This document shows, one piece after another, positions 24,930 to 64,000 of a stretch of 64,000 nucleotides of DNA (position 1 is its first letter; the number at the start of each line of letters is the position of its first letter). The position numbers were made by a program, and so were the translations under genes. The stretch spans positions 673,550 through 737,549 of the forward strand of contig FN649752.1 in the NCBI GenBank assembly GCA_000310025.1, in the 5' to 3' direction. The DNA is from Ectocarpus siliculosus. Lineage: Eukaryota > Sar > Phaeophyceae > Ectocarpales > Ectocarpaceae. A model generated the notes under the pieces. The model saw only the letters and a program-made list of their open reading frames with translations, did not search any database and was not told where the DNA came from.

Positions 24930-25259
24930 GGGGAAACATCACACGTACCGCAAGTGTTCGGGTTGTGGCACGGATCGCCGACACCGCACGGGTCGGGGTC
25001 TTGGCACAGGGCACAGGGGGTGCGGGAACAAATCGGTTTCCAATTTTAATCATTGACATCGCACGTAAAATATTCGATGCACCCATCGGGACGCACATAA
25101 GCCATGCCCCACACCTATTTTTTACCGAAGGAACCACCCAAGCAAGAGGGACCTACATAGGCCTGCACAACCTAGCACCTACCCACGTCGACACCAATCT
25201 AGCACCTATCCAAGCAATACCAACCTAAAGATTATCCCATCAATACCAACCTAGCGCCA
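24930..25259 (+). repeat. Degenerate repeat-rich segment
   Basis: Related words GGCACGGATCG, CGCACGGGTCGG and GTCTTGGCAC(A/G)GGG occur here. They recur at about 25695-25710, 26305-26330, 26385-26415 and 26470-26490, apparently as remnants of one dispersed element. Repeats of CCTA(C/G)C...CAACCTA lead into the minisatellite. Confidence 0.4.
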
Positions 25260-25470
25260 ATGCCGACACACCAACCTAGAACTGAGCCACCCAGCGCCAA
25301 CCTAGCCCCAATGCCGGCGCACCAACCTATTAGAACTGAACCACCCAACGCTAACCTAGGCCTGATGCCGGCACACCAACCTAGAACTGAGCCACCAAGC
25401 GCCAACCTAGCCCCAATGCCGGCACACCAATCTATTAGAACTGAGCCAGCGCCAACCTGGCACCTACTGG
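25258..25470 (+). repeat. Minisatellite, period about 51-54 bp
   Basis: Four imperfect tandem units with shared words GCCG(G/A)C(A/G)CACCAA(C/T)CTA, GAACTGA(G/A)CCA and GC(C/T)AACCTA. Two units carry an inserted TTA. The unit stays open in one plus frame (25260-25913), giving an artificial Pro/Asn-rich ORF that I do not regard as a gene. Confidence 0.85.
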
Positions 25471-29464: not shown

Positions 29465-30326
29465 ATGCCTAAACTGCCTGAGTCCGAAGACAGCAGCGCC
29501 AAGGTTGACTTTAACTCCTTCAGCTCTTCGGCGGGCGTCGGGGCCACGCTCAACGCCACCGTCGTTACCGCCGGTCACGAACGCCCTGAACCCTCCAAGA
29601 TCGCAGTCTCCAACGACTCCGCCTCGTGGTCAAGCAGCCGCCTCACTTCGCCGCCGCTGCCACCGCCACCGCCAGCGTACGACGACACCCTGTCAATGCC
29701 GCTCTCCCCGAGGCGTTACCATGTGAGCGCCGCAGCTCCCAAGCCTGCTCCAGCCACCGCTGGCGATCTTGCCACTGCTGCTCCCCCGTCATGCGCTGTC
29801 GCGCGCGGCATGTCTGAAGCGACCGACAAAACGAATCCGTTGTCTCCGTCTACTTCACCACGTCATGAGCAGCCGGGTTCGTCTCCAGAGTTTCGCATGA
29901 CGATGTCGTCTGGGGCAGCCGCCACGATGCCAGCTCCCACCCGCGCTGCGGCTGGTGCGGCGGCCGGTGCGGGGGGTGTCGTGCCCCCGCCCCTGCCCCA
30001 TCGGGCGACCGTTCTTCCTGCTTTGGAGAAAACGGATGAGCGCGGTGTTGCAGACGCGACCAAGGACAGTGGCGACCTCGCTGCTTCGACGGACCAGTCG
30101 GACGAAACCCCGAGCAACATCGTCCAAGAGGTGGCCGAAGACATGGGTGAGGGCGTGGCCGACATGATGCAGGCCATTCGAGGCGTGTTCGGCAGGGGGA
30201 AAAGTGACGACGGCGATGATGCCGACGCGACACCACCACCGCCGCAGAAGGTGGTCTACGGTGGTGGTGGCGACAGTGGCACCCCTGAACAGAGAGATTT
30301 TCCTGTTTCCGCAGTCCTCAGTCGAG
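29465..30326 (+). CDS. Giant gene, exon 1
   Basis: The ATG at 29465 lies two bases after a strong acceptor (pyrimidine tract plus CGACACAG), so an upstream leader intron is likely; upstream coding exons in phase 1 are also possible. The donor is GTCGAG|GTGAGG, phase 1. The N-terminus (MPKLPESEDSSAKVDFNSFS) has no signal peptide. A PPLPPPPPAYDD stretch of SH3- or WW-ligand type follows, then Ala/Pro-rich disordered sequence and a helix ending DMMQAIRGVFGRGK. Confidence 0.6.
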
Positions 30327-33300
30327 GTGAGGCATTAGCGCTGCCGCACGGCCTGTTGTGCTTGGCTGGCGGCAGCACTGGTAGAGAGCGAGAGCACCTC
30401 AAACGTTGTTCTTGCAACGCCACCCCACTCCAAGCCTCGCCAGGAGGAAATGATGTTTTGCTATAACCCCATCGACGTTCCCTCGCCCCGTTCCCCCCTG
30501 TTCCTTCTGTAATGGTGGCAAAAGTTCCCATCCGTCGTGATAGTCAGTACAATCACGCCTCAAAGCCCGATCGAAAATATTGCGATAGTAGCCCCGCCCC
30601 CACACATTTTTGATTCACGTCCCCCATTGTCATGAACCGGAGCACACTATTTCACCTCGCTAACAATAACGGTGACACCACCGCGACATTAATACTCGCT
30701 ACTTCTAGTATTGTAGAGAGCACTGGTTCGTGGTCGACCTCGTTAGATCAATCGCAGCAATAAGTAGGTGACACTCGAGTCCCAGCTGCATGTGCGGTTC
30801 CTTCTTGTTGACCGAAAATAATTCTTTTGCCGAAGTGTCCCCGCCTTTGTACACGCCAGTCTTTTTGGAAAATATACGTACAATCACAGAGAGACTAGAT
30901 GTGTACCCGTTTGAAGTATAACCACAATCGAAGGGTGTGTGTTGAAGTCTTTCACGGTGAGCGGGGCAAAAACGGCCGGATATTGTTGTTGTCTTTCTTT
31001 GAATAACCGTTCCAATCTCTCTACCGAGCGCCTTCATCTGGCCGTTCTGATCAAACTGGATACTGGGCTTAATTTTCTTCTTTGTCACAGAAAACAAAAG
31101 TCATCAGGCTCAAGCCTTGGGGACGAACGTGCTGAGACGCTGCAATGGTACATCCAGCGTGTGAGGAGCTCTGTTGATTCGTGCTCTTATTTTCGCGAGA
31201 GGTGTTTGTAAGTTTAAGTTTCGTCTTCGGGACACAAAACTAGCAGCAGCAAGACAAAGTTTCAGGCTCGTTCGACCTTTTCTAGCCAAGACACAGTCAT
31301 GAGAGCGACGTTGGTACAGCCGTGACATTTTTCTTCGTTTTTCCCCCAAGTGGCTGAATAAACTGCAGAGAGAACAGGTAGTAAGTAGAGTCGTTGAGTC
31401 CACGTGTCTTAGACCATGTCCTCGTAGAGCTCGCCCCGGTGGCGATACACTATCTATACGCGTAGAACACGCCGTCCTTAGTCTCGTCTTCGCAGCTAGG
31501 AGTGACGCGTTGAGGACTTTGCACTCGATTCTAACTCCCGGACCACAGCAGTCCTCGATCATTTCTGTTCGATGTCAATTTTCGGTTGTGTGTTCCTATC
31601 ATCCAAATGCCTGCGAATCGCCGTCGCAAATACGGTATTTTCCACCAGCCAATACGTTTATACCACGCTCACATACCAGTTTTCATCAATCAGCCTGTCT
31701 TTGTAGTTGTGCATACCCCATGAAAAGAACGCACCTCGTCACTCTACCTCGGGGTGTCATCCGCCGCAATATTTCGAGAGCGTACGTAGGCCCTACGCGA
31801 AGAATCACTGCAAACTCTCTGCTTCGGCTGCGACGTGCCAGTGTTCGAAAGCGATGATAAAAGCCGCACTCCGGCTCGAAGGAACCAATAAACCGGAAAA
31901 CATCCATACCTTATTCGAAATTGCCAAGATATTCGCAATGCTCAACCGCGCCTGAGCCTGCGTAACCCCCCGTCCCTTATCATAGCCAAAGTGGCCTTCC
32001 GAAAGTAACGCATTACTATGTCGCCCTCCCCCCCCCCTCTTCCGTCCTACCTCTCCCTTTCCGCCATCCCTGTGTCTGGTAGTCGAGTCTCCGGAGCCGT
32101 CCTCGTCCTCTTCCGCGCCCTCTCCCGTGCACCTCGACGGAGGCGCGGCGTTCTCCCGCGTGTTCGGTGCCCTGAAGGCTGCGGGGGTGGCCACCGACGG
32201 TGACAGCAGCACGGAGATGGGCGACGAGAAAGAGCAAGACGACGAAGCCGGTAAGGGGGAGGAGGAAGAGGAAGAAGACGAGGAGGAGGAGGAAGAGCAA
32301 CCGAAGGGAGAGGAAAAGGAGGACCTCGGCAGTTCGGCCGTCTCAAGGCTGCGCCAGATGTTCGAACGCTCGGACGGGAAGAAGAGGGCGATCCTGGAGG
32401 CCGGCCCAATCCCCGGGCAGGCGGTTTCGACTATCGGTGAATCTACCGGCGAAGACGAAGCTGCCGGGGAGGCGACGGGTGCGACGGGATCACCACAAGC
32501 CTCCCCGAAAGCTGGAAGCAACTCGGCGGAAGAGGAGGGGGCAAACGCCGCGGGGCTGGCGGCCGAGAGACCGGCAGCATCTGCGGCGTCCGGCTTTGGG
32601 GTCTCGGTCCACAAGTTCTTCTTCGGGTCTCGGACTAAGAAGGACGCCGCGCCGAAGGCTGCCGAAGAGCCCACTCCTCTAGCGGTTGCCGATGGAGCGG
32701 TGGTGGAGCCCTTGGGCGTGGCCGGGCAAAAGGAATCGTCAGAGACGGGACCGTTTGGCGACACGAAGCAGGCAAAGCTCGGAGGTTTGCCGGCCGAGTC
32801 GAGCACGAGCACTCAAGCTGTTGCACCGGCCGTGGAACAAACCGTGCTCCTGGCGGCGAAGGACGTCTCCTCTGTACCGGCAGCGATTGTCGACGTGGAC
32901 TCGACACCTCAGCTTGGCGGGGCGGCGTCATCTGCCAGCGTGCACCACTCGTCGACGGAACCGGCAATCTCGTCTGGTGCTGCTCAAGACAAAGCTGGCG
33001 ATCGTACAGGCGAAGAGATCGCTGTCGACGTCGTGGCGGTGGAGGAGTTGGCACCGGTAGCTGAAAAGGAGTCCCGACAGAACCCACCAGGAATTGTGGG
33101 GGCCCCGGCGGTGGTGGGAGTAGCCGGGACGGCAGGTCAGAGCGAAAAGCCTGCCGCCGACATGTCGATGCTGAACATGGCTCAGGCCTCCGCTGTGGAA
33201 GGTGCCGTGCATCCTGATGTGCCGGAAGAAAGGATTGTCCCTGAGGCCGCTGAAACGACCGTGACTGCGGTGGAGGCACCGACGGCAAAAGCCTATGATG

Positions 33301-35865
33301 GAGAGGCCACCCATGCCGCTGCTGTTATCGCGGCGCAGACCAAGGAGAAGATTGGCGCGTTTGAAGTGGCTCAGGTCAAGTTAATCGAACCAGAGATACC
33401 TGCGGTGGACCCGCCGGTGCCTTCTGATGTCCATGCAGTTGTGGCAGAAGGTGTGTCAGGTCCGTGTGCGACTGTGGGAGACGAGTTGCCAACGTTAGGA
33501 GGAGTGGGACAGACGACAGGGGCGTTACAAGACACTCGAGACGAAGCACCGCTCCAGGTGAAAGAGAAAGGAGTAGGCTGCTCCTTCAGTGCAACTTAAT
33601 GCCCGCATGCATGCACTCGGGTGCACTTCAGTATCTTGCGGACCGGCAGGACTTGATACGGGGACTTCCTGGGCAATGTTTTCAAGATTGGTGAATCGTG
33701 TTCTCAGCTGGCTGAAGGCCGTCTGGGCCTTCCCACCAGAGCTCGCCGGCCAGTATTCGTTGCCTTACTACACTATTATATCCCCACGCCCAAGAGACTT
33801 GTTGTCGTCGTTGTTGCTTCTTGATTATGCTGTTGGTTGTTGCTGCTGCTGCTGCGGTTTTCTTTGATGTCTAGCCATTATCTTTCGAAATGCCGAACGT
33901 CTCCCGATAAAACTCCCCATTGGTTATCTATTAGAAGGAGAACCCAGCGGCCAGAATCGAAGCATTTCTGGGGCACACTGTTTTTCGTTGTAAGTTGCGC
34001 ACTCCAATAGTTCTTTCGCTCGGCACGCCACCCACCATGCCCAACTCTCCCTTTTATGGGGCCCTCTCCTTGGCGTCCCGTTGATGCTTTCTCTGTTGAT
34101 GGTCGTCACAGATTTCTGCTCTTAAACTCTCTCTCGTTTTCTCCCGTTCTTGCACCGTCCTTGTCACAGGGAGCCAACGGCGAGCAGCAAACGGTTGTGG
34201 CAGCTGTGGAAGACGCAACGACCGCTGGGGACAAAGATGAACCGTATGTTACTGCGGCGGAAGAGGAGGGGCCGCAGGATGGAGACCTCGCGCCGCTCTC
34301 TTCGGCCACGTTCGACTTTTCTTCACCCACCACAGCGACGAACGACGGGCCTTTGGTCGAACCTAGCGGGAATGTACCGGCGATTCGCGAGGTCGCGCCG
34401 CCACCGGCGATAACCGAGGGCATGGTCGCATCTAGCGGGGATGTACCGGCGCTGGAGAAGGCCGCGCCGTCACTGGCGGCACCCAAAAACATGTCGTCTC
34501 CGGATTCCGATTGCGGGGTAATCGCCCCCTCGAGGGCCGGTCCTCTTCCCGAGGTCGCGGCGAAAGCGCCGGACACGGCCAAGATCGGCGGATCGCCAAC
34601 GAAGACCGTTGTCGACCAGCTCGCTCCGGGTGGTGTGGAGGAGGCGCTGTCGGAGGAAGGAGAAATCGAGCATCAAACTCCTGCCCCCAAGCAGGAAGAC
34701 GCGCCCATCCTGGCGAGTGCGCCCTTCAATGGTACTGCCGTGAGCGAGCTGGAAGTTTCAGCTGTACAAGCACCGGGCAAGATGTCTCAGGTGCAAAGAA
34801 CGGAGCAGGCGGCATCGATGGTCGAGGATGTTGTCGCTGCTGTGGGCCAGGTGAGGTCATGTACGGGTTTCTTGTTGCATGTGGGGTGGGGCAGGCTGCT
34901 TGCGTGTCGAGCGGTGGTACATATGTCTTCGCTGAGAGGTCTGCCTGTTCGTGCGGACAGTGTTCCATCACACAAGTTCCACGCCCAAACACCGACGTCG
35001 TTCCAACTCAATGGCCAGCGTGATCGATACCAAACGAACAGAGTCACTCACAAAACACTGAACAAGAACACTAAAACCAAGCACAGGCACACAATAGCTA
35101 GATTGTCTTCTATCAGACGAACTCATAACGCCTTCAAACGCCATGAACTACTGATCGACCAAATTCCACCACGGTCAATCGGCTGGGATTTCAGTACTGC
35201 CGGCGAAAAGGAGGATGGCGGTGATGGCATGAAGGGGATTACATCTTTGGCTACCCAAGGACTGTTGTTTTTCACTCACGCGAAGTATTATCAATACATC
35301 GCATAAACTCTTCCCGTGCGCACGCACAAATGGCTTTCGAAGGAGACTGTTGTTTTGCACTCACGCGAAGTCTTATCAATACATCTCATAAACCCTATCC
35401 GTGCGCACACACAAAGACACCCCGTTATACCTCCCACGTTTTGTCCACAATTGGTGGCATACCGTATAGATAGATCCTCAGGCTATAATAGTTGCTGTGG
35501 TTGACAAAATAATTAGCTATTTACCCGATAGACAGCAAATCATTGGTTGCAGTGGTCAAGGTATTGTGGGCAGTAAATGAGCTCGCAGCTTCAGGAAACG
35601 AGGCGAAAAGCCCCACGGGGACAGGGGACGCTATGCTTTGCCGGAGTTCCAAAGCACCAGATAGGCGTGGACAACATCGGGTCTTGCGTTCACAGTATGA
35701 AATCGAGCGCCCTCGACGGAGTGATCCTTCAAATCCCGTCCACAGCACTGGCTTCGGAAAGCGAAGCTTTTCTGCGTGTGCTTTGTGAACGGCCCAAATA
35801 ACGTGTCTCGCTTGTGAGTCTGTGCCACCCTGAATATCTTCCGTGCAACCTTGGCAACCTCTCTG

Positions 35866-35939
<74 letters not shown>

Positions 35940-38900
35940 TCTATCTCTCTGTGAACCATCAATATTCGATCTCCACGTCAAAACTTCTCATCCTACGACA
36001 ACCCGTATTTTCAGGAGAGCGATATCGCGCCCATCGAGGCTGCGGGGGTCATTCCGGCGGAATCGCAAGCCAAGCCTATGGCAACGGTGGAGAAACCGAG
36101 CGAGGACAAGGAGGTGAACGTAACAGACGCCACCCCCATCCTCAGTACTGTGGCGAGGCTCCGGTTGATGTATGAGAAAAAGAAAGTGAAGCGACCCCCC
36201 GTTTCACTTTCGACGCGTAAGGTGGAGAAGGACGGAGCGACAGAGCCGATCCAAGTTCCCGGCGAGGTTACATCTGCGGCGGCGGACCCTGCTCCGACCG
36301 TTGCCGCTGACGACGTTGCTGCCCCAAGTCCTGGGGAGAACACCACCGCCCCCGATATCACCGAGGGGGACACGACCGATGGGAACGTGCGCGAACCTAC
36401 TGAGGAACCGGATATCGCTCGAGACGAAGAGCCGGTCAAGGCCATGGATCCTTCTGCGATGGAGACAAAGGTTGAGGGTCCCTTCCCCGAGTCAACAACG
36501 GAGAGAGTTATCCCCAGGATAATTGGCAGCGGGCGTGACCGTCCCGCAGTCCTGCCGAAGGACGATACACCGTCGGACAAGGCCGAGGAGGGACCTCCTG
36601 CTGCCGTGGCTGGTGATGTAACATGTGCATCTGGCGATGAATCACCAAGCTTAGCCATCCTGCACCCCGAGGCGCGGCCATCCTACGGCGATGCCACTCA
36701 ACCTGCAACGGAGGCTGCCACGGGATTGATAGCGACCATCCAATCTTCTGGTGGTGGTGACGCAGACACGTCATCGGCGCGCCTCGAGGACAATTCCACC
36801 CCGGTGAGCATGGGGACACCGGGGGCACTGAACGAAGATGGTGCTGCGGGCGAAGCGACGATCGAGGCGAGTGTCAACATTCTCTTGTAGGCGAGAAGGC
36901 AGAACGGCTGTTGGATGTTGTTCGTCTCGTGTCCAGTGTGATGCGGTTTGTTGTCCACACTTGGTGTGCTTTTTTCCGGCCGTTGAAGGCCAACGCGCGT
37001 CCTTTGTCTTGTCCTCACCAGTGGGATGCTGGTACCAGTTGGTGATGTCCCCGCTGTCGCTCTTTAAAACCCTTCGACCGTGTACATATTTCTGCAGGAC
37101 GTCGGTGGCGCACCCTACGAGCAACCCACTTCGGTGGCAGCAAGAGACGCTCCGATCGATGTTGTCCCGGGGCCTGCCGTTGCCGACCCCGCTGATTCTG
37201 TGACAACCAAACAGAGACCAAAGAAGGCAGACGGCGAGACCGCCGGGGACGTTCCGTCGAGCACGGCTGAAGATGTGCATGCCACTGAGAAGGCGCCGGT
37301 AGTGGCGGGGTCGGTGTCCGCGCTAATATCAGCGCTCGAGGAGAGTTCGGCGGTGCCATCGGCGGAAGAGGCGGCCGCCCCAGTCGTGGGCGAGGTACTG
37401 CAGTCTGCCACCGACGACCGTTCTCCTACAGTTCCTGCGGAGGCGACGTCCGTTGTGGACGGTGCATCCGTGGGCGTTGAATCGGCCGCCGTGGACCCTG
37501 CTGTATCCGTGGACAAGACGGCGGCCCCGATTTCGAGCGTATCAGGACCAAGTCCGGCTGTCGTAGACGAGGTACCCGAACCGGCGGCGGCGGCCGAGGT
37601 CCCATCGAGTACCGGCGAGGTCACGGAGGAGCCAGAGGGCACGAAAGCCGACGGCTTGCCGTGCTCGACGTTGGTTGGAGAGGCAAGTGCTGCGTCCATC
37701 GCCGTCGATGAGCCGGTCCTGTCTGGCCCAGGTGATGTGGTGCCGGAGGCTGTGATGGACGTGGCGACGCCTGTGTTGGAAGTGGAGCCGGTGGCAGAGG
37801 TGGGCGAGGTAGCGGCCACGAGCTCTGATGCTGGTGCTGAGGAGACGGACTCGTCTATGCCAGCGCTCGTGGACGATTTGTCTCCAGCGAGAGAGGAGGA
37901 AGCAGAGACGACTGAGGTGGATGGCGGTGCGGGCGAAGCACCGATCGAGGTGAGTTTGTGAGGTGGTTTGGGTAGAGGTCAGGCTTGGTGGGTTTTGGAC
38001 GTGGTGAATCAATAGGGAAAGCGGGTGAGGCGATGTGTAGCCATCGTTGGGCCGGTAATATTGATGTTGCTAAGCCATTCGGCATCAACTGAAGACGACG
38101 AAGTAGTTTGATGATTGCCGTGCTAAACACCGTCTTTCACTAGCGGCTGTATCCTGTAGCTCCTGTTCACTAGTGAGATGGGACCCACTAGCACTTGACG
38201 TCCTCGTTCTCCCTGCTGTCGCTCTGTTGGACCGTGTACGTACGCATTTGCAGGCCGTCGATGGCGCACCCTCCCAGCAACCCACTTCGGTGGCACTAGA
38301 AGACGCCCCGATCGATGTTGTCCCGGGAACCACTGTGGCGGAGCCGTCTGTGTCCGTGGCGGCTGAGGAGAGACCAAAGCAGGCAGACAGCGATACCGCT
38401 GGGGATGTGGATGTCACTGAGAAGGTGCCCGTGGCGGCGGGGTCGGTGTCCGCATTGGTGTCGGCGCTCGAGGAGAATTCGGCGGCGCCATCGGAGGAAG
38501 AGACGGCCGCCCCCGCCGTGGATGACGTACGGCCGTCGGCCACAGACGACCGTTCTCCTACAGTTCCTGTGGAAACGGCGTCCGTCGTAGTCGATGCATC
38601 CGTGGTCGTTGAGGCGGCACCTGTGGACCCTGCTGTATCCGTGGAGGATGCAGCGGCCGTGGTGTCGAGCGTATCAGGACCAACTCAGGCTGTCGTAGAC
38701 GAACCCGAACCGGCGGTGGCGGCCGAGGTCCTATCGAGTACCGGTGGGTTCACGGAGGAGCCAGAGGGCACGAAAGCCGACAGCTTGCCGTGCTCGGCGC
38801 TGGTCGCAGAGGCAAGTGCTGCGTCCGTCGCCGTCAATGAGCCGGTCCTGTCTGGCCCGGATGGTGCGGTGCCGGAGGCTGTGGTGGACGTGGCGACGCC

Positions 38901-53900: not shown

Positions 53901-56900
53901 TTATACTAGCGGTTGTATCTCGCGACTCTCCAGAACAATGTTCCATCAGGCCTTGACGTCCTCTTTTTCCCGTTGTCGCTCTGCTGGCCCTTTTCGTACA
54001 ATTTCTGTAGGGACTCGAGGTCTCACCCTCCAATCAACTAAGTTCGGGTTCGGCCGGAGACGCCCCGATCGATGCCGTCCTGGTGACTGCCGCGGCTGAG
54101 GAGACACCAAAGAAGGCAGACGGCGAGACCGCCGGGGACGTTCCGTCGAGCATGACCGGAGATGTAGATGTCGCTGAGAAGGCGCCGGTGTCGGCGGGGT
54201 TGGTGTCCGCCCTGGTATCGACGCTCGAGGGGATTATCGCGGCGCCATCGGAGGAAGAGGCGGCCGCTCCAGTCATGGACGAGGTACTACCCTCGGCCAC
54301 CGACGACGCTGCTACTACAGCTCCTGCGGAGGCGACGTCCGTTGTAGGCGATGCATCCGTGGGCATCGAATCAGCTCCTGCTGACCCTGTTGTTTCCGTG
54401 AAGGACCCTGCGGACACGGTGTCGAGCGCGCTAGAACCAAGCCCGGTCGTGGTAGACGAGGTACCCCAACCTGCGGAGACGGGCACGGTCCCGTCGAGTA
54501 CCGGCGGGGTCCCGGAGGAGCCAGAGGGTGCGGAAGCCGACGCCATGCCATGTTCGGCGTTGGTTGTGGAGGCGATTGCTGTGCCTGTCGCCGAGCCGGT
54601 TCTGTCTGGCCCGGGTGACGTGGTGCCGGAGACTGTGGTGGACGTGGCGGCTCCGGTGTCGGAAATCGAGCCGTTGTCAGAGGTGGGCGAGGTAGCGGCG
54701 ACGACGTCTGGTACTGATGCTGAGGAGGCAGACCCGTCTATTCCACCGCTGGTGGACGGTTTGTCTCCAGCGGGAGCGGAGGAATCAGAGGCGGCGGAGT
54801 TGGATGGTGGTGCGGTCGAAGAGCCGATCGAGGCGAGTGTGTGAAGTGTTTCCGGTCGAGGTTATACTTAATTGGCGAGATTTGGACGTTTAGTGTCAAT
54901 GTTGACACCTGAGCGGATGGTACGATGTGCACTCAGGATTAGGCCGGTACGAAGAATGCAGACGTTCGACATCAGGCTATGACGACGAAAGTAGTTCGTT
55001 GGTTACTCTCCTCAACGTCGTCGTTCACGCTATAGCTGTCGTATCGCGTGGCTCTCGCTCGCTAGTGCTGTTGTATACATCGGTGCTTGACATGCTCGTT
55101 CTCCCGCCTGTTGCGCTGTGGGACCCTGCGTGTATGTTTTGTTCAGGACATCGGTGGCACAACCTCCGAGCAACCCGCATCGGTGGCAGCGGACGACGCC
55201 CCGATCGATGTTGACCCGGAGACTGGTGTGGTGGAGCCGTCTGTGTCCGTGACGGCTGAGGAGACGCCGAAGCAGACTGACGGTGAGATCGCTGGGGACG
55301 TTCCGTCGAGTACCGGTGAAGATGTGGATGCCACTGAGGAGGCGCCGGTGTCGGCGGGGTCAGTGTCGGCGCTGGTGTCGGCGCTCGAGGAGAGTTCGGT
55401 GGCGCCATCGGCGAAAGAGGCGGCCGCTCCAGTCTTGGATGAGGTACTGCCGTCATCCCCCGACCACGGTTCTCCTACAGCTCCTGCAGAGACGACGTCC
55501 GTTGTAGACGATGCATCCGTGGTCGTTGACGTTGCGGCCGTAGAGCCTGCCGTGTCCGTGGAGGACCCTGCGGCTGTGGCGTCGAGCGGTCCCGAACCAT
55601 GTCCGACCGTCGTAGACGAGGTACCCGAACCGGCGGTGACGGACGTGGTCCCGTCGAGTGTGGAAGCCGACGACGTGCCATCTTCGGCGTTGGTTGTGGA
55701 GGCTACTGCTACCGTCGTCGAGGAGTCGGTGCTATCTGGCACGGGTGATGTAGTGACGGAGACTGTAATCGACGTGCCGCCTCCGGTGTTGGAATTCACG
55801 CCGATCGTAGAGGCGGGCACGGTAGCGGCGACCACCTCTGATGCTTTCGTTGAGGAGGAAGACCCGTCTATTACAGCGCTAGTGGACGGTTCGTCTGCAG
55901 CGGGAGCGCATGAATCCGAGGCAGCGGAGTTGGATGGTGGTACGGGCGAAGCGCCGATCGAGGCGAGTGTGTGAAGTGGATATAGTAGCGGATTGACCAA
56001 GCGATGTTTGGAGGATCTGCGCCTAATCAATCCGACACTGTGGGCGAGCGTGGCCATTGGCATTCAATATTTTGGCGGTTCTGTTGACATTAACTCGTTC
56101 GACATCGGCTTCGACGAAAAGTGTTTCGTTGGTGTCCTTCTCAACACTGCTGTCGTTTGCACTCTCCGTTGTATCGTTGTGGCTATTGCTTGCGAGTGCT
56201 AGGATATCCACTAGCGCTTGACATTCTCGTTCTTCCGCTGTCGCTCTGTTGGAACCTGCATGTACGTGCGCGTTCTGCAGGTCGTGGGTGGCGCAACCTC
56301 CGACCAACTCACTTCGGTGGCAGCGGAAGACGCCCCGATCGATGATGTCCCGGTGACTGCCGTGGCGGAGCCGTCTGCGCCCATGACGGCTGAGGAGACA
56401 CTGAAGCAGGCAGACGGCGAGATCGCCGGGGACGTTCCGTCGAGCACGACTGGAGATGTGGATGTCGCTGAGAAGGCGCCGGTGTCGGCCGGGTTGGTGT
56501 CCGCGCTGGTATCGGCGCTCGAGGAGAGTTCACCGGCGCCACCGGAGGAAGCGGCGGCCGCCCCAGTCGTGGATGAGGTGCTACCGTCATCCACGGACGA
56601 CTGTTCTCCCACAGCTCCTGTGGAGGCGACGTCCGTTGTAGACGATGCATCGGTGGTCGTTGAAGCGGCCGCTGTGGACCCTGCGGCTGCGGCGTCGAGC
56701 GTGCCAGAACCAACTCCGGCCGTCGTGGACGAGGTACCCGAACCGGCGGAGGTGGAGGTGGTCTCGTCGAGTTCGGGCGAGGTCACGGAGGAGCGAGACG
56801 GCGTGACAGCCGACGGCGTGCCATCTCCGGCGCTGGCCACGGACGCCACTGCGGCCGCCGTCACCGAGCCGGTCCTGTCTGGCACGGGTGATGTTGTGCC

Positions 56901-59900
56901 CGAGGTTGTGGTGGTCGTGGCAGCTCCGTTGTTGGAAATCGAGTCGGTGTCAGAGGTGGGCGAGGTAGCGGCGAAGACGAAATCGGTTGCTGGTGGTGAC
57001 GACGCAGATCCTTCTATGCCATCGCTGGTGGACGATTTGTCTCCGGTCGGGCCGGAGGAAGCAGAGGCGGCGGAGTTGGATGGTGGTGCTGTCGAGGCGC
57101 CGATCGAGGTGAGTGTGTGAAGTGGTTGCAGTAGCGTTTAGGCTGTTTAGGTGATCTTTGAAGGTACTGCGCCAATGTGGAAATGTGCTCGAGAGTTGCG
57201 ATTTGCAGTAACGATTGAGCCGTTTTCGTTGATATAATGAAGCCGCTCGATACCAGCCTTCGACGAAACGTGCTTGGTTGGTGTCCTTCTCAACACTACT
57301 GTCGTTTCCACTCTCCGTTGTATCCTTGTGGCTCGTGCTCGCTAGTGCTATGGTTTCCATCATCGCTTGACATAGTTTCCCTCTCGCTGTCGCTTTGCCG
57401 ATTCCTGCACGTGCGTGCTCATTGTCCAGGTCGTCGGGAGCGCACCCTCCGACCAACTCACTCCGGTGGCAGCGGAAGACGCCCCGATCGATGATATCCC
57501 GGTGACTTCTGTGGGGGAGCCGTCTGTGCCCGTGACGGCTGAGGAGACACCGAAGCAAGCAGACGCCGAGACCGCCGGGGGCGTTCCGTCGAGCACGGCT
57601 GGAGTTGTAGATGTCGCTGAGAAGGCGCCGGTGTCGTCGGGGTTGGTGTCCGCGCTGGTATCGGCGCTCGAGGAGAGTTCAACGGCGCCACCGGAGGGAG
57701 CCGCGGCCGCCCCAGTCGTGGACGAGGTACTACCGTCATCCACCGACGACTGTTCTCCCACAGCTCCTGTGGAGGCGACGTCCGTTGTAGACAATGCATC
57801 GGTGGTCGTTGAAGCGGCCGCTGTGGACCCTGCGGCTGCGGCGTCGAGCGTGCCAGAACCAACTCCGGCCGTCGTGGACGAGGTACCCGAACCGGCGGAG
57901 GTGGAGGTGGTCTCGTCGAGATCCGGCGAGGTCACGGAGGAGCGAGACGGCGCGACAGCCGACGGAGTCCTATCTCCGGCGTTGGCCACGGAGGCCACTG
58001 CGGCCGCCGTCGCCGAGCCCGTCCTGTCAGGCACTGGTGATGTTGTGCCGGAGGGTGTGGTCGACGTGGCAGGTCCGTTGTCGGAAGTCGAGCCGGTGTC
58101 AGAGGTGGGCGAGGTAGCGGTGACGACACCTGGTACCGGTGGTGACGACGCAGACCCTTCTATGCCAGCGCTGGTGGACGATTTGTCCCCGGCTGAGCCG
58201 GAGGAAGCAGAGGCTGTGGAGTTGGATGGTGGTGCTGTCGAGGCGCCGATCGAGGTGAGTGTGTGTAGTATTAATTGTTGTTTTTAGCCCCGGCAGTTGT
58301 TGGATTTTGTTGATCGAGGTGGAAACGAATTCTGGTGTTGCGAGGCGGAGTCAGGGTCGGGCCGTTACTGTGGCAGCGATGAAGACGTTCGGCATTGGCC
58401 AATGACGACGACGTAGCTTTGTGGGTTGCCCTTTCAACCCTCTCGTTCATACTACTGGTTGGTGTCCGTGGCTCTCTATTGCTATGGTATGTCGCGGCGT
58501 GACGTCCTCTTTTTCCGGCTGTCGCTCTGTTGAACCCTGTACGTACAATTTCTGCAGGATCTCGAGGCCTCACCCTCCGATCAACCAAGTTCGGGTTCGG
58601 CCGGAGACGCCCCCATCGATGATGTCCCGATGACTGCCGTGGCGGAGCCGTCTGTGTCCGCGACGACTGAGGAGACACGGAAGCAGGCAGACGGCGAGAC
58701 CGCCGGGGAAGTTCTGTCGAGCACGGCTGGAGATGTGGATGTCGCTGAGAAGGCGCCGGTGTCGTCGGGGTTGGTGTCCGCGCTGGTATCGGCGCTCGAG
58801 GAGAGTTCCGCGGTGCCACCGGAGGAAGAGGCGGCCGCCCCATCCGTGGACGAGGTACTACCGTCATCCACCGACGACTGTTCTCCCACAGCTCCTGTAG
58901 AGGCGACGTCCGTTGTAGACGATGCATCGGTGGTCGTTGAAGCGGCCGCTGTGGACCCTGCGGCTGCGGCGTCGAGCGTGCCAGAACCATCTCCGGCCGT
59001 CGTGGACGAGGTAGCCGAACCGGCGGAGGTGGAGGTGGCCGCCATCGATGCCGTACCGGTGTCCGCGATGGCTGAGGAGACACCGAAGCAGGCAGACGGT
59101 GAGACCGCCGGGGACGTTCCTTCGAGCACGGCTGGAGTTATGGACGTCGCTGAGAAGGTACCGATGGCGGCGGCGTCTCAGTCCGCGCTGTTATCGGCGC
59201 TCGAGGAGAGGTTACCGGCGCCACCGGAGGAAGAGGCGGCCGCCCCAGTGGTGGATGAGCTGCTACCGTCATCCACCGACGACTGTTCTCCCACAGCTCC
59301 TGTAGAGGCGACATCCGTTGTCGACGATGCATCGGTGGTCGTTGAAGCGGCCGCTGTGGACCCTGCGGCTGTGGCGTCGAGCGTGCCAGAACCAACTCCG
59401 GCCGTTGTGGACGAGGTACCCAAACCGGCAGAGGTGGAGGTGGTCCCGTCGTGTTCCGGCGAGGTCACGGAGGAGCGAGACGGCGTGACAGCCGACGGCG
59501 TGCCATCTCCGGCGTCGGCCACGGAGGCCACTGCGGCCGCCGTCACCGAGCCCGTCCTGTCAGGCACGGGTGTTGTTGTGACGGAGGCTGTGGTCGATGT
59601 GACGGCTCCGGTGTCGAAAGTCGAGCCGGTGTCAGAGGTGGGCGAGGTAGCGGCGAAGACGTCTGGTACTGGTGGTGACGACGCGGACCCTTCTATGCCA
59701 TCGCTGGTGGACGAGGTTTCCCCGGTCGGGCCGGAGGAAGCAGAGGCGGCGGAGTTGGATGGTGGTGCTGTCGAGGCGCCGATCGAGGCGAGTATGTGAA
59801 GCGGTTGTAGTAGCGGTTAGGCTGTTTAGGTGATCTTTGGAGGTACTGCGCCAATGTGGAAAAGTGGGCGAGTGTGGCGACTTACGGTCAAGTTTGGGCC

Positions 59901-62900
59901 GTTTTCGTTGATATGATGAAGCCGCTCGATATCAGCCTTCGACGAAACGTATTTGGGTGGTGTCCTTCTCAACACTGCTGTCGTTTGCACTCCCCGTTGT
60001 ATCCTTGTGGCTCGTGCTCGCTAGTGCTATGGTTTCCATAAGCGCTTGACATGGTTTCCCTCTCGCTGTCGCTCTGCCGATTCCTGCACGTGCGTGCTCA
60101 ATTGTCCAGGTCGTCGGGGGCACACTCTCCGACCAACTCACTCCGGTGGCAGCGGACGACGCCCCGATCGATGATATCCCGGTGACTGCCGTGGCGGAGC
60201 CGTCTGTGCCCGTGACGGCTGAGGAGACACCGAAGCAGGCAGACGGCGAGATCGCCGGGGACGTTCCGTCGAGCATGGCTGGAGATGTGGATGTCGCTGA
60301 GAAGGCGCCGGTGTCGTCGGGGTTGGTGTCCGCGCTGGTATCGGCGCTCGAGGAGAGTTCACCGGCGCCACCGGAGGAAGAGGCGGCCGTCCCAGTCGTG
60401 GATGAGGTACTACCGTCATCCACGGACGACTGTTCTCCCACAGCTCCTGTGGAGGCGACGTCCGTTGTAGACGATGCATCGGTGGTCGTTGAAGCGGCTG
60501 CTGTGGACCCTGCGGCTGTGACGTCGAGCGTGCCAGAACCAACTCCGGCCGTCGTGGACGAGGTACTTGAACCGGCGAAGGTGGAGGTGGTCCCGTCGAG
60601 TTCGGGCGAGGTCATGGAGGAGCGAGACGGCGTGGCAGCCGACGGCGTGCCATCTCCGGCGTCGGCCACGGAGGCCACTGCGGCCGCCGTCGCCGAGCCG
60701 GTCCTGTCAGGCACTGGTGATGTTGTGCCGGAGGGTGTGGACGATGTGACGGCTCCGTTGTTGGAAGTCGAGCCGGTGTCAGAGGTGGGCGAGGTAGCGG
60801 CGACGACACCTGTTGTTAGTGGTGACGACGCAGATCCTTCTATGCCATCGCTGGTGGACGATTTGTCTCCGGTCGGGCCGGAGGAAGCAGAGGCGGTGGA
60901 GTTGGATGGTGGTGCTGTCGAGGCGCCGATCGAGGTGAGTGTGTGAAGTGGTTGCAGTAGCGATTACACTGTTGATGTGACCTTTGGAGGTACTGCGCCA
61001 ATGTGGAAATGTGGTCGAGAGTTGCGATTTGCAGTAACGATTGAGCCGTTTTCGTTGATAGAATGAAGCCGCTCGATATCAGCCTTCGACGAAAAGTGTT
61101 TGGTTGGTGTCCTTCTCAACACTACTGTCGTTTCCACTCCCCGCTGTATCCTTGTTGCTCGTGGTCGCTAGTGCTAGGGTATCCTCAAGCGCTTGACATG
61201 GTTTCCCCCTCGCTGTCGCTCTGCCGATTCCTGCACGTGCGTGCTCATTGTCCAGGTCGTCGGGGGCGCACCCTCCGACCAACCCACTCCGGTGGCAGCG
61301 GACGACGCCCCGATCGATGATATCCCGGTGACTGCCGTGGCGGAGCCGTCTGTGCCCGTGACGGCTGAGGAGACACCGAAGCAGGCAGACGGCGAGACCG
61401 CCGGGGACGTTCCATCGGGCACGGCTGGAGATGTGGACGTCGCTGAGAAGGCGCCGGTGTCGTCGGGGTTGGTGTCCGCGCTGGTATCGGCGCTCGAGGA
61501 GAGTTCAACGGCGCCACCGGAGGAAGAGGCGGCCGCCCCAGTCGTGGACGAGATACTACCGTCATCCACCGGCGACTGTTCTCCCACAGCTCCTGTGGAG
61601 GCGACGTCCGTTGTAGACGATGCATCGGTGGTCGTTGAAGCGGCCGCTGTGGACCCTGCGGCTGCGGCGTCGAGCGTGCCAGAACCAACTCCGGCCGCCG
61701 TGGACGAGGTACCCGAACCGGCCGAGGTGTACGTGGTCTCGTCGAGTTCGGGCGAGGTCACGGAGGAGCGAGACGGCGTGGCAGCCGACGGCGTGCCATC
61801 TCCGGCGTTGGCCACGGAGGCCACTGCGGCCGCCGTCACCGAGCCCGTCCTATCAGGCACTGGTGTTGTTGTGCCGGAGGTTGTGGTCGATGTGGCGGCT
61901 CCGTTGTTGGAAGTCGAGCCGGTGTCAGAGGTGGGCGAGGTAGCGGCGAAGACGTCTGGTACTGGTGGTGACGACGCAGACTCTTGTATGTCATCGCTGG
62001 TGGATGATTTGTCTCCGGTGGGGCCGGAGGAAGCAGAGGCGGCGGAGTTGGATGGTGGTGCTGTCGAGGCGCCGATCGAGGTGAGTGTATGAAGTGGTTG
62101 CAGTAGCGTTTAGGCTGTTTAGGTGATCTTTGGAGGTACTGCGCCAATGTGGAAATGTGCTCGAGAGTTGCGATTTGCAGTAACGATTGAGCCGTTTTCG
62201 TTGATAGAATGAAGCCGCTCGATATCAGCCTTCGACGAAACGTGTTTGGGTGGTGTCCTTCTCAACACTACTGTCGTTTCCACTCTCCGTTGTATCCTTG
62301 TGGCTCGTGCTCACTAGTGCTAGGGTATCCTCAAGCGCTTGACATGGTTTCCCCCTCGCTGTCGCTCTGCCGATTCCTGCACGTGCGTGCTCATTGTCCA
62401 GGTCGTCGGGGGCGCACCCTCCGACCAACCCACTCCGGTGGCAGCGGAAGACGCCCCGATCGATGATATCCCGGTGACTGCCGTGGCGGAGCCGTCTGTG
62501 CCCGTGACGGCTGAGGAGACACCGAAGCAGGCTGACGCCGAGACCGCCGGGGACGTTCCGTCGAGCACGGCTGGAGATGTGGATGTCGCTGAGAAGGCGC
62601 CGGTGTCGTCGGGGTTGGTGTCCGCGCTGGTATCGGCGCTCGAGGAGAGTTCAACGGCGCCACCGGAGGAAGAGGCGGCCGCCCCAGTCGTGGACGAGGT
62701 ACTACCGTCATCCACCGGCGACTGTTCTCCCACAGCTCGTGTGGAGGCGACGTCCGTTGTAGACGATGCATCGGTGGTCGTTGAAGCGGCCGCTGTGGAC
62801 CCTGTGGCTGCGGCGTCGAGCGTGCCAGAACCAACTCCGGCCGTCGTGGACGAGGTACCCGAACCAGCAGAGGTGGACGTGGTCTCGTCGAGATCCGGCG

Positions 62901-64000
62901 AGGTCACGGAGGAGCGAGACGGCGTGGCAGCCGACGACGTGCCATCTCCGGCGTTGGCCACGGAGACCACTGCGGCCGCCGTCACCGAGCCGGTCCTGTC
63001 AGGCACTGGTGATGTTGTGCCGGAGGTTGTGGTCGACGTGGCAGGTCCGTTGTTGGAAGTCGAGGCGGTGTCAGAGGTGGGCGAGGTAGCGGCGAAGACG
63101 TCTGGTACTGGTGGTGACGACGCAGACCCTTCTATGTCATCGCTGGTGGATGATTTGTCTCCGGTGGGGCCGGAGGAAGCAGAGGCGGTGGAGTTGGATG
63201 GTGGTGCTGTCGAGGCGCCGATCGAGGTGAGTGTGTGGAGTATTATTGTTGTTTTTAGCCCCGGCAGTTGTTGGGTATTGTTGATCGAGGTGGAAACGAA
63301 TTCTGGTGTTGCGAGGCGTTGTCAGCGTCGGGCCGTTACTGTGGCAGCGATGAAGACGTTCGACATTGGCCAATGACGACGACGTAGCTTTGTGGGTCGA
63401 CCAGTCAACCCCCTCGTTTATCTTACCGGTTGGTGTCCGTGGCTCTCTATTGCTATGGTACGCCGCGGCGTGACGTCCTCTTTTTCCCGCTGTCGCTCTG
63501 TTGAACCCTGTACGTACAATTTCTGCAGGATCTCGAGGCGTCACCCTCCGATCAACCAAGTTCGGGTTCGGCGGGAGCCGCCCCCATCGATGATGTCCCG
63601 GTGACTGCCGTGGCGGAGCCGTCTGTGTCCGCGACGACTGAGGAGACACGGAAGCAGGCAGACGGCGAGACCGCCGGGAAAGTTCTGTCGAGCACGGCTG
63701 GAGATGTGGATGTCGCTGAGAAGGCGCCGGTGTCGGCGGGGTTGGTGTCCGCGCTGGTATCGGCGCTCGAGGAGAGTTCGGCGGTGCCACCGGAGGAAGA
63801 GGCGGCCGCCCCATCCGTGGACAAGGTACTACCGTCAACCACCGACGACTGTTGTCCCACAGCTCCTGTGGAGGCGACGTCCGTTGTAGACGGTGCATCG
63901 GTGGTCGTTGAAGCGGCCGCTGTGGACCCTGCGGCTGCGGCGTCGAGCGTGCCAGAACCAACTTCGGCCGTCGTGGACGAGGTAGCCGAACCGGCGGAGG
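29465..64000 (+). CDS. Giant modular protein with tandem exon repeats, 3' end beyond window
   Basis: One plus-strand gene: exons 29465-30326, 32083-33557, 34170-34850 and 36015-36866, then 24 repeat-unit exons from 37098 to the window end. All 27 junctions in view are phase-compatible (the first is phase 1, all others phase 0). About 23.5 kb is coding, about 7,840 codons, still open at 64000. Each repeat unit is an acidic, Val/Ala/Glu/Pro/Ser/Thr-rich segment of about 270-284 residues with few Lys, Arg or aromatic residues. It starts (D/V)(V/I)GG, then AP(I/S)D(V/D)VP, ETPKQ(A/T)D, SALVSALE, TSVVDDASV, VDEVPEP, EPVLSG, and ends near GEAPIE. No catalytic domain or confirmed membrane anchor is visible, and I do not recognise the protein. 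Structural, cell-surface or scaffold roles are guesses. Conserved open frames and in-frame indels argue that it is expressed and under selection. Confidence 0.75.
30327..32082 (+). other. Intron 1 of the giant gene
   Basis: 1,756 nt, GTGAGG to CTGGTAG, phase 1. It ends after a C/T-rich tract (32028-32062). The split codon rejoins as GTC. Short ORFs inside have no support. Confidence 0.5.
32083..33557 (+). CDS. Giant gene, exon 2
   Basis: Acceptor GTGTCTGGTAG|TCGAG; donor GCTCCAG|GTGAAA, phase 0 out. 1,475 nt. It encodes a Ser/Pro start, then LDGGAAFSRVFGALKAAG, a long Glu/Asp run (32225-32325), SAVSRLRQMFERSDGKKR, SVHKFFFGSRTKKDAAPK, and about 330 residues of Val/Ala/Glu-rich sequence like the later repeats. 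Its last codons (DEAPLQ) match the unit ending GEAPIE, so it is probably a distant relative of the units. Confidence 0.7.
34170..34850 (+). CDS. Giant gene, exon 3
   Basis: Acceptor CGTCCTTGTCACAG|GGAGCC; donor GGCCAG|GTGAGG. 227 codons, phase 0 in and out. Acidic Ala/Val/Pro/Glu-rich sequence with two copies of a VPAI/LE(K/V)A-type motif (about 34375-34470). It shows no full repeat unit but a similar composition. Confidence 0.7.
34851..36014 (+). other. Intron 3 with tandem duplication and (CT)n tract
   Basis: 1,164 nt. It contains an 85-bp tandem duplication (GACTGTTGTTTT(T/G)CACTCACGCG at about 35260 and again at about 35345, continuing into TATCAATACATC and GTGCGCAC). It also contains a dinucleotide (CT)n tract of about 34 units at 35868-35935, about 80 bp before the acceptor TATTTTCAG. 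Confidence 0.75.
36015..36866 (+). CDS. Giant gene, exon 4 (first GC donor)
   Basis: Acceptor CGTATTTTCAG|GAGAGC; the donor GATCGAG|GCGAGTGTC is a GC donor. 284 codons, phase 0. Residues STVARLRLMYEKKKVKR form a basic patch in otherwise acidic sequence. The ending (GEATIE) matches the repeat-unit ending, so this looks like the most diverged member or founder of the array. Confidence 0.7.
37098..37949 (+). CDS. Repeat unit 1
   Basis: Acceptor TATTTCTGCAG|GACGTC; donor ATCGAG|GTGAGTTTG (GT). 284 codons. First complete unit of the array. Compared with later units it has PRPKKAD in place of TPKQAD, and the STGEVTEEPEGTKAD form of the middle segment. Confidence 0.75.
38254..39078 (+). CDS. Repeat unit 2
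   Basis: Acceptor ACGCATTTGCAG|GCC; donor ATCAAG|GCGAGT (GC). 275 codons. It lacks nine codons near its start relative to unit 1 (the VPSSTAED segment), an in-frame loss. Its middle segment resembles unit 1 most closely. Confidence 0.75.
39374..40219 (+). CDS. Repeat unit 3
   Basis: Acceptor CGTCCTGCAG|GACCTT; GC donor. 282 codons. First unit with the GGVPEEPEGAEADAMPC middle segment, shared with units 7, 11, 13 and 16. The intron that follows is the prototype for those after units 7, 9, 11, 13 and 16. Confidence 0.75.
40534..41349 (+). CDS. Repeat unit 4 (class A)
   Basis: Acceptor TTTTGTTTAG|GACATC; GC donor. 272 codons. Prototype of class A (units 4, 8, 10, 12, 14, 17), marked by the start DIGGTPSEQP and the segment TDVVPSSVEADD. 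Confidence 0.75.
41671..42492 (+). CDS. Repeat unit 5 (class B)
   Basis: Acceptor GCGTTCTGCAG|GTCGTG; GC donor. 274 codons. Class B, marked by VVGGATSDQP and PSCSGEVTEERDG. It is the only class-B unit besides unit 9 that keeps a GC donor. Confidence 0.75.
42802..43626 (+). CDS. Repeat unit 6 (class B)
   Basis: Acceptor AACTTTCTGCAG|GTAGTC; donor ATCGAG|GTGAGTGTGTGG (GT). 275 codons. The base after the usual TG of the intronic stop differs (TGG), so an unspliced message would read 19 codons into the intron instead of four. Confidence 0.75.
43925..44746 (+). CDS. Repeat unit 7 (class C)
   Basis: Acceptor ACAATTTCTGTAG|GATCTC; GC donor. 274 codons. Class C start DLEVSPSNQLSSGS. It lacks the EPSVP segment found after TAVA in other units. 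The duplicate of this unit is unit 16. Confidence 0.75.
45058..45864 (+). CDS. Repeat unit 8 (class A)
   Basis: Acceptor TTTTGTTCAG|GACATC; GC donor. 269 codons. Two in-frame losses relative to unit 4: six bases at about 45210 (VP of DVPSS) and three bases at about 45317. Confidence 0.75.
46246..47070 (+). CDS. Repeat unit 9 (class B)
   Basis: Acceptor AACTTTCTGCAG|GTAGTC as in unit 6, but with a GC donor and a downstream intron of the unit-3 kind. The exon's first two thirds follow unit 6, while its end (ESEAAELDGG) follows other classes. It is a recombinant unit. Confidence 0.75.
47379..48194 (+). CDS. Repeat unit 10 (class A)
   Basis: Acceptor TTTTGTTCAG|GACATC; GC donor. 272 codons. Carries the class-A variant SSGPIACVTVADEVPEP shared with units 12 and 14. 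Confidence 0.75.
48510..49361 (+). CDS. Repeat unit 11 (class D)
   Basis: Acceptor GTTTCGTTCAG|GACGTC; GC donor. 284 codons. Has a nine-base in-frame insertion giving VVDEMDEVLPS. Its translation is identical to that of unit 13. Confidence 0.75.
49676..50491 (+). CDS. Repeat unit 12 (class A)
   Basis: Acceptor TTTTGTTCAG|GACATC; GC donor. 272 codons. Near-identical to unit 14 up to about 50212, then switches to a different end (VPEAVVDVATPVLEV). Confidence 0.75.
50807..51658 (+). CDS. Repeat unit 13 (class D)
   Basis: Copy of unit 11 displaced by exactly 2,297 bp, with the same acceptor, GC donor and nine-base insertion. 284 codons. Confidence 0.75.
51973..52788 (+). CDS. Repeat unit 14 (class A)
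   Basis: Copy of unit 12 displaced by 2,297 bp up to about 52509, after which it follows the unit-8 kind of ending (LVVEVTATVAEEPVLSG). GC donor. 272 codons. Confidence 0.75.
53110..53712 (+). CDS. Repeat unit 15 (class B, internally deleted)
   Basis: Acceptor GCGTTCTGCAG|GTCGTG; GT donor. Only 201 codons. Relative to unit 5, 222 nt (74 codons) are missing just after the first seven bases of the exon. The join lies at GTCGTGG|TATCGG with TGG microhomology. The reading frame and both splice sites survive. Confidence 0.75.
54011..54832 (+). CDS. Repeat unit 16 (class C)
   Basis: Acceptor ACAATTTCTGTAG|GGACTC; GC donor. 274 codons. Close copy of unit 7, about 10,086 bp away, with the same preceding intron. 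Confidence 0.75.
55147..55962 (+). CDS. Repeat unit 17 (class A, divergent end)
   Basis: Acceptor TTTTGTTCAG|GACATC; GC donor. 272 codons. The first two thirds are ordinary class A. The last third (VIDVPPPVLEFTPIVEAGTV, then FVEEEDPSITAL) is the most divergent ending in the array. Confidence 0.75.
56281..57108 (+). CDS. Repeat unit 18 (class B)
   Basis: Acceptor GCGTTCTGCAG|GTCGTG; donor ATCGAG|GTGAGTGTGTGA (GT). 276 codons. From here to the window end GT donors predominate. Confidence 0.75.
57430..58254 (+). CDS. Repeat unit 19 (class E)
   Basis: Acceptor CATTGTCCAG|GTCGTC; GT donor. 275 codons. First class-E unit (19, 21, 22, 23), marked by VVG(S/G)APSDQ(L/P)TPVA. Confidence 0.75.
58558..59787 (+). 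CDS. Repeat unit 20 (class C, one and a half units)
   Basis: Acceptor ATTTCTGCAG|GATCTC; donor ATCGAG|GCGAGTATG (GC). 410 codons, 135 more than usual. Near 59041 the sequence returns to the start of a unit (AIDAVPVSAMAEETPKQ) and runs through SALLSALE, DDCSPTAP and TSVVDD a second time. Confidence 0.75.
60110..60934 (+). CDS. Repeat unit 21 (class E)
   Basis: Acceptor CAATTGTCCAG|GTCGTC; GT donor. 275 codons. Its end carries the variant VVSGDDADPSMPSL. Confidence 0.75.
61256..62080 (+). CDS. Repeat unit 22 (class E)
   Basis: Acceptor CATTGTCCAG|GTCGTC; donor ATCGAG|GTGAGTGTATGA (GT). 275 codons. Units 21-23 with their introns form a third young stretch of the array, but at a lower identity than units 11-14. 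Confidence 0.75.
62402..63226 (+). CDS. Repeat unit 23 (class E)
   Basis: Acceptor CATTGTCCAG|GTCGTC; donor ATCGAG|GTGAGTGTGTGG (GT). 275 codons. As at unit 6, the intronic stop is lost to TGG, so an unspliced message reads on to 63376. Confidence 0.75.
63529..64000 (+). CDS. Repeat unit 24 (class C), cut by window end
   Basis: Acceptor ATTTCTGCAG|GATCTC. Open to the last base. Resembles the first half of unit 20. The array therefore continues beyond the window. Confidence 0.75.

Follow-up and report, generated by a model that had tools for sequence, protein, structure and literature searches.

In the PEVK region of titin, a giant protein, many symmetric exons encode disordered, repeat-rich sequence, and exon number sets length. 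For isoform diversity the precedent is Dscam. Brown-algal ROCO genes carry one repeat per exon with all exons in one phase, and are reported to show intragenic duplication and variable splicing (PMC11378527). At the protein level, MARCKS, GAP43 and BASP1 are lipid-modified and carry a cationic effector domain (PMC6478813).

Here we describe a locus in Ectocarpus siliculosus that very probably represents a single protein-coding gene, presumably transcribed as one unit, with a repeat middle of 34 copies of a ~275-residue exon (~825 bp). Like titin PEVK, the locus has many symmetric exons of disordered, repeat-rich sequence, here by prediction; unlike titin PEVK, the encoded protein contains only 1.8% lysine, nine exon pieces searched with Pfam gave no Ig or Fn3 match, no homology was found, and the units are much longer than PEVK exons. 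Like the brown-algal ROCO (LRR-ROC-COR) and NB-TPR genes, it has tandem repeat exons, probably within the same lineage. The ROCO exons are 72-bp phase-2 exons whose LRRs stand beside a GTPase (PMC11378527), whereas the exons described here are phase 0 and ~825 bp long, and encode an acidic, predicted disordered chain; no LRR or TPR with ROC-COR or NB-ARC was matched by Pfam in the nine pieces. We regard the tandem in-phase LRR exons of the ROCO genes as the nearest genetic precedent. With MARCKS, GAP43 and BASP1 the predicted protein has in common a chain that is acidic, rich in alanine and predicted to be disordered, along with short patches of basic and aromatic residues and a terminal lipid signal; it differs in having a CaaX-type C-terminus rather than N-terminal acylation, several patches and an exon array. 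It is about 35 times longer than MARCKS.

Gene model and coding evidence

The window is the whole 64,000-nt stretch of DNA that was analyzed, and it covers positions 673550-737549 of its contig. Because the repeat array runs past its end, we added 60 kb of downstream DNA, and positions called extended carry the window numbering on into this sequence. Exon borders were placed manually, guided by splice signals and open frames. The resulting model spans 29465 to 81030 (extended) on the + strand and comprises 41 exons with 35,412 nt of coding sequence: Ea, Eb, Ec and Ed, then units U01-U34, then C1, C2 and C3 (Table 1). One frame passes through all 41 exons and encodes 11,803 residues, its sole stop being the terminal one. 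Introns are in phase 0 at 39 of 40 positions, the Ea-Eb junction being the only phase 1 join, and 38 of the 41 exons are symmetric, each skippable in frame as computed from the model. The start codon of Ea sits two bases past an acceptor-like CACAG, and an upstream exon, coding or non-coding, may therefore exist. The intron before Ed contains a direct repeat of 85 bp (35260-35415) and, further on, 46 tandem copies of CT (35859-35950).

Table 1. Features of the gene model, in window or extended numbering
Feature	Position	Strand	Remarks
Exon Ea, first coding exon	29465..30326	+	ATG at 29465; stops in all other five frames
Exon Eb	32083..33557	+	phase 1 join to Ea; two of five most basic windows, both with aromatics
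Exon Ec	34170..34850	+	phase 0 at both ends
Exon Ed	36015..36866	+	phase 0; GC donor; one basic-aromatic window
U01, first of 34 repeat unit exons	37098..37949	+	GT donor
U02-U14 with introns	38254..52788	+	13 exons, each 269-284 codons long; introns of 295-381 nt; all donors GC except that of U06
U11 to U13	48510..51972	+	U11 and U13 100% identical over exon plus intron
U15	53110..53712	+	222 nt (74 codons) missing at or near 5′ end; frame kept
U16-U19 with introns	54011..58254	+	repeat unit exons
U20, long unit	58558..59787	+	405-nt in-frame internal duplication; GC donor, no GT six bases downstream
U21-U23 with introns	60110..63226	+	repeat unit exons
U24	63529..64000 in window; exon to 64770 extended	+	exon cut by window end
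U25-U34	end at 76925 extended	+	repeat units beyond window
C1	77749-78276 extended	+	C-terminal exon
C2	79273-79911 extended	+	C-terminal exon
C3, last exon	80119-81030 extended	+	ends CVIS; TAG stop at 81028-81030

An earlier note on the window alone had described 24 successive unit exons with conserved splice sites, joined in matching phase to exons upstream. These exons are present as U01 (37098) to U24 (63529), the last of which the window truncates, the four upstream exons join in matching phase, and acceptors and donors are intact in 34/34 units of the whole array. The predicted length of more than 7,800 residues also held, since the part of the model inside the window amounts to 23,533 nt, or 7,844 codons; outside it lie the 3′ part of U24, U25-U34 and C1-C3. 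The reported length differences of 222 nt and 405 nt are real, the former in U15 and the latter as an in-frame internal duplication of ~405 nt common to U20, U24, U26 and U28. U30 is shorter by 78 nt. The 33 inter-unit introns measure 293-381 nt. Unit acceptors are CAG (31) or TAG (3), donors are of the GYGAGY type (GCGAGT in 17 units, GTGAGT in 16 and GTGAGC in one), and unit exons mostly end in ...PIE/GYGAGY, where the slash marks the junction.

The units are open, as the earlier note had claimed for the 24 that it saw: the model frame contains no stop in the 34 units, each of which is divisible by three in length, and none in the seven flanking exons. Every unit contains stops in four of the five alternative frames. 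An open frame by itself proves less than one might think, because one antisense frame, which has its wobble position in common with the model frame, also lacks stops in 24 of the 34 units. This sharing also explains why long antisense open frames mirror the units on the minus strand between 37100 and 64000, where a gene finder could miscall them.

Changes between units provide a control. A unit departs from the consensus at an average of 88 positions, which makes 3005 changes over all units. When these changes were placed without regard to frame in 500 trials, the mean number of stops was 45 (minimum 28) and the mean number of units with stops was 24.7 (minimum 17), compared with zero for both in the observed units. 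Likewise, the claim that indels between units are multiples of three was borne out across the array, with 1366 of 1386 gap runs (98.6%) obeying the rule in exons versus 807 of 3868 (20.9%) in introns; the 20 exceptions are runs in the nucleotide alignment, as the exon lengths themselves are all multiples of three. Median identity between units is 81% in exons and 64% in introns.

The dN/dS ratio is not near 1 across all units, the outcome that the earlier note had set against its own model. In the model frame the median is 0.64 over 561 unit pairs, indicating purifying selection that is weak or recent, since the pairs are not independent and some closely related pairs lie near 1. Values of 1.06-1.16 were obtained in the four frames with a different wobble position, and the antisense mirror frame gives 0.68, nearly the model-frame value.

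We considered whether the locus could instead be a non-coding array or a decayed gene, its open frames a product of G+C-rich composition, or could code on the antisense strand. The open mirror frame and its dN/dS are what such a reading would lean on, but that frame is interrupted 15 times in the units and by one or more stops in every one of the seven flanking exons, the splice signals lie on the + strand, and G+C content is 65.6% in exons versus 51.3% in introns. Gap lengths and the stop control favor coding, and searches of the window yielded neither a tRNA nor an Rfam match at the gathering score. We therefore hold a non-coding or antisense origin to be most improbable.

It is likewise very unlikely that the units are a cluster of short, independent genes. 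Past the donor, codon four is TGA in 23 of the 34 units and TAA in one more, which could mark the end of each gene. However, this stop is lost in the other 10 units while the donor is intact in all 34, only 10 of 34 units offer an ATG in frame upstream of the acceptor and after the last in-frame stop, and unique exons at both ends are joined in phase. The loss of the stop, the constancy of the donor and the scarcity of ATGs thus point to splicing between units rather than to one gene per unit.

Growth of the array and its GC donors

We searched the genome (189.5 Mb, 492 contigs) with one unit, C2 and C3 as queries. The unit returned this locus only (39 rows, same contig, 710650-750474), C2 returned itself only at E up to 1, and C3 returned itself plus two chance-level rows (E 1.6 and 3.7). 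Among viral contigs, the unit query gave 62 pattern matches, none of which was confirmed. Large EsV-1-7 families mark brown algae, and the EsV-1-7 motif had at least 150 matches in this genome (150 of 880 candidates scored), many adjoining in one frame, and none in 14 prokaryote control genomes.

Around the gene, ten neighboring ORFs gave no Pfam match above cut-off and three sub-threshold rows. About 4 tandem copies of a 51-bp repeat lie at 25246-25448, within an open frame whose product contains NLAPMPAHQPRTEPPSA-like repeats, and a 622-codon open frame occupies 5425-7290 on the minus strand; neither frame has a Pfam match at E up to 0.1.

Self-comparison revealed repeated multi-unit blocks, for example one of 7.3 kb shifted by 2678 and one of 4.6 kb shifted by 7653, with 93-94% identity. 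Divergence among the 34 units is graded, with dS from 0 to 0.46. U10 and U12 are 97.2% identical and, together with the identical pair U11 and U13, appear to record the most recent duplication or conversion.

The exon tree and the intron tree disagree, and we compared the relatedness of the 33 introns with that of the exon parts on either side. Relatedness of intron n follows most closely that of the first 270 nt of exon n+1 (r = 0.77). The three other 270-nt pieces compared, namely the end of exon n+1, the end of exon n and the start of exon n, give 0.39, 0.37 and 0.21. These four values were reached in 0, 0, 0 and 1 of 500 permutations, respectively. The low value of 0.37 across the donor does not stem from missing signal, as the last exon third correlates 0.58 with its own first third and 0.69 with its own middle. 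Because intron n tracks exon n+1, the copied cassette is best described as an intron plus the next exon, joined at or near exon 3′ ends, in support of the growth by duplication claimed in the earlier note. The intron link weakens along the thirds of exon n+1 (0.77, 0.52, 0.39), suggesting additional exchange inside exons.

We had entertained the idea that crossovers fall mostly inside exons and dropped it; the main junction lies at or near exon 3′ ends and in-exon exchange is secondary. Homologous recombination inside exons would preserve the frame whatever the intron phase. Exon 3′ parts are not strikingly less diverse than the rest and so do not mark a recombination hot spot. We hypothesize that the array grew by repeated unequal homologous recombination that copied an intron with its following exon, plus exchange within exons. 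RNA genes in the introns were rejected as the reason for the array on the same Rfam and tRNA results given above; introns are also less conserved than exons.

A unit profile scored below the best of 50 shuffles in all seven flanking exons and hence does not identify them as old units. The 3′ end of Ed, TIE/GCGAGT, is unit-like, and when the flanking exons were compared with one another, C2 versus Ed was the best among the matches listed (6.6 bits).

GC donors occur in 18 of the 40 introns, namely those of 17 of the 34 units and of Ed, compared with a reported share of GC-AG introns below 1% in model organisms (PMC7072748). An in-phase GT six bases downstream is a possible alternative donor in 16 GC units and Ed. 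U20 has no such GT (junction GAG/GCGAGTATG), and the conserved intron start is the first six bases, which together make GC donors the simpler reading. Donor type switched 6 times on the exon tree and also on the intron tree (shuffled means 11.6 and 11.4; minimum 5).

These splice features raise the question of whether the locus is an isoform-diversity engine in which subsets of units are chosen by alternative splicing, as in Dscam or the LRR exons of brown-algal ROCO genes. Exon symmetry and the frequency of GC donors are compatible with such a role, and tandem LRR exons of ROCO genes are reported to be variably spliced (PMC11378527). However, the units are near-equivalent and without a recognized binding domain, and retention of any of the 33 unit introns would terminate the protein; we consider this explanation unlikely. 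We give a similarly small chance to a length-evolvable molecular ruler, a prenylated giant polyanion whose reach would be set by unequal exchange of units, with copy number polymorphic within the species, and in each cell by skipping of any of the 38 symmetric exons, the GC donors acting as weak sites that favor skipping.

The predicted protein and its ends

The translated model is rich in Ala (17%), Val (15%), Glu (12%), Pro (11%), Ser (10%) and Asp (8.5%), in keeping with the acidic Val/Ala/Glu/Pro/Ser/Thr repeats described in the earlier note. Acidic residues (D+E) make up 20.5% and basic residues (K+R) 2.7%, for a net charge of -2103 over the whole protein and about -57 per unit. An AlphaFold prediction for one unit aligned with 19 sister units (20/34 units) gave a mean pLDDT of 48.3 and a pTM of 0.10, consistent with a disordered unit, for which an alignment of sisters only is weak proof. 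A PDB search with a 20-unit profile matched no solved structure and gave one chance-level row (E 0.59). The earlier note knew of no named family with this repeat; correspondingly, Pfam returned nothing above cut-off in nine exon pieces (the seven flanking exons, U01 and U22, that is, 2/34 units), the only sub-threshold rows being LAP1_N (E 0.56) and DUF1525 (E 0.12).

The flanking exons are of a different character. They contain 44 aromatics in 1983 residues, compared with 19 in about 9,820 unit residues. When 21-residue windows were ranked by charge only, the five most basic all fell in flanking exons (C2, Ed, Eb, C1 and Eb) and each held an aromatic. These five carry 10 aromatics in 105 residues versus 44 in 1983 for the flanks (P = 6e-5, with the cut at five picked after the ranking was seen). 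Of the next nine windows, at least four lack aromatics, and one of those without any is in U01. A basic-F-G motif common to the flanks was noted post hoc, and the weight rests on the charge-ranked window test. The strongest basic window, KKKKGGFSLQKLFGWDKGKPR in C2, resembles, in our judgment, the MARCKS effector patch.

C3 ends in ...NVCSPNKQDCVIS, with a second cysteine seven residues before the CVIS cysteine. We take the CVIS terminus to be a CaaX-type box, and it has the C-a-a-X form of CaaX proteins; prenylation itself is a prediction. By a rough estimate, about 1 in 1000 proteins of C3-like composition would end in this way by chance. The genome contains matches to the prenyltransferase family (PF00432; seven match rows at three places). 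The model start, MPKLPES, has no MG and no early cysteine for N-terminal myristoylation or palmitoylation, although the true start is uncertain.

The end-exon windows with aromatics thus represent basic effector-like patches in an acidic, predicted disordered chain, and no curated MARCKS-type family was matched in the nine pieces. By analogy, the giant protein would work like MARCKS-type proteins without being a member of them, with putative binding to PIP2, calmodulin and actin.

A possible if doubtful alternative is that the protein is a soluble, giant disordered polyanion, serving as a calcium-buffering, phosphorylation or phase-separating scaffold, and that its CVIS ending arose by chance. 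Acidity and repeats would suffice for such a role, and the Pfam result in the nine exon pieces is compatible with it. However, the concentration of the five most basic windows in the ends, each with aromatics, argues against a scaffold of this kind, and the CaaX-type end with its second cysteine is a better fit for an anchor.

We therefore tentatively favor a lipid-anchored polyanionic brush or spacer, although we rate this statement as a whole, including the gene, its disorder, binding, prenylation and mode of growth, at a little below even. The gene model, the constraint on its frame, the acidity, the patches, the CVIS ending and the co-inheritance of each intron with the next exon are read directly from the sequence. 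On this basis we infer that one gene of about 41 exons would encode a polyanion of about 11,800 residues that is intrinsically disordered and faces the cytosol, the 34-copy middle forming an extended, self-repelling chain. The basic-aromatic patches in the N- and C-terminal exons would have acidic membrane lipids, calmodulin or actin as ligands, and the CVIS box at the C-terminus would be prenylated. As the ends would bind the membrane and the CVIS box would be prenylated, the chain could stand off the membrane as a polyanionic brush or spacer.

Among the papers listed in literature searches, which took in few subscription journals, none was seen to describe this gene. It would be a very large protein for a stramenopile, with no recognized domain in the parts tested, and we know of no longer stramenopile protein. 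The locus is a case of a gene growing giant by copying its own exons, and it records its own route to that size in 34 sister exons of graded divergence and in introns that mark the positions of exchange. With near half of its introns carrying GC donors, it also offers a natural series in which the two donor types, GC and GT, can be compared in settings that are alike in other respects. Should the lipid anchor prove real, the protein would form a membrane brush of a size new to our knowledge.
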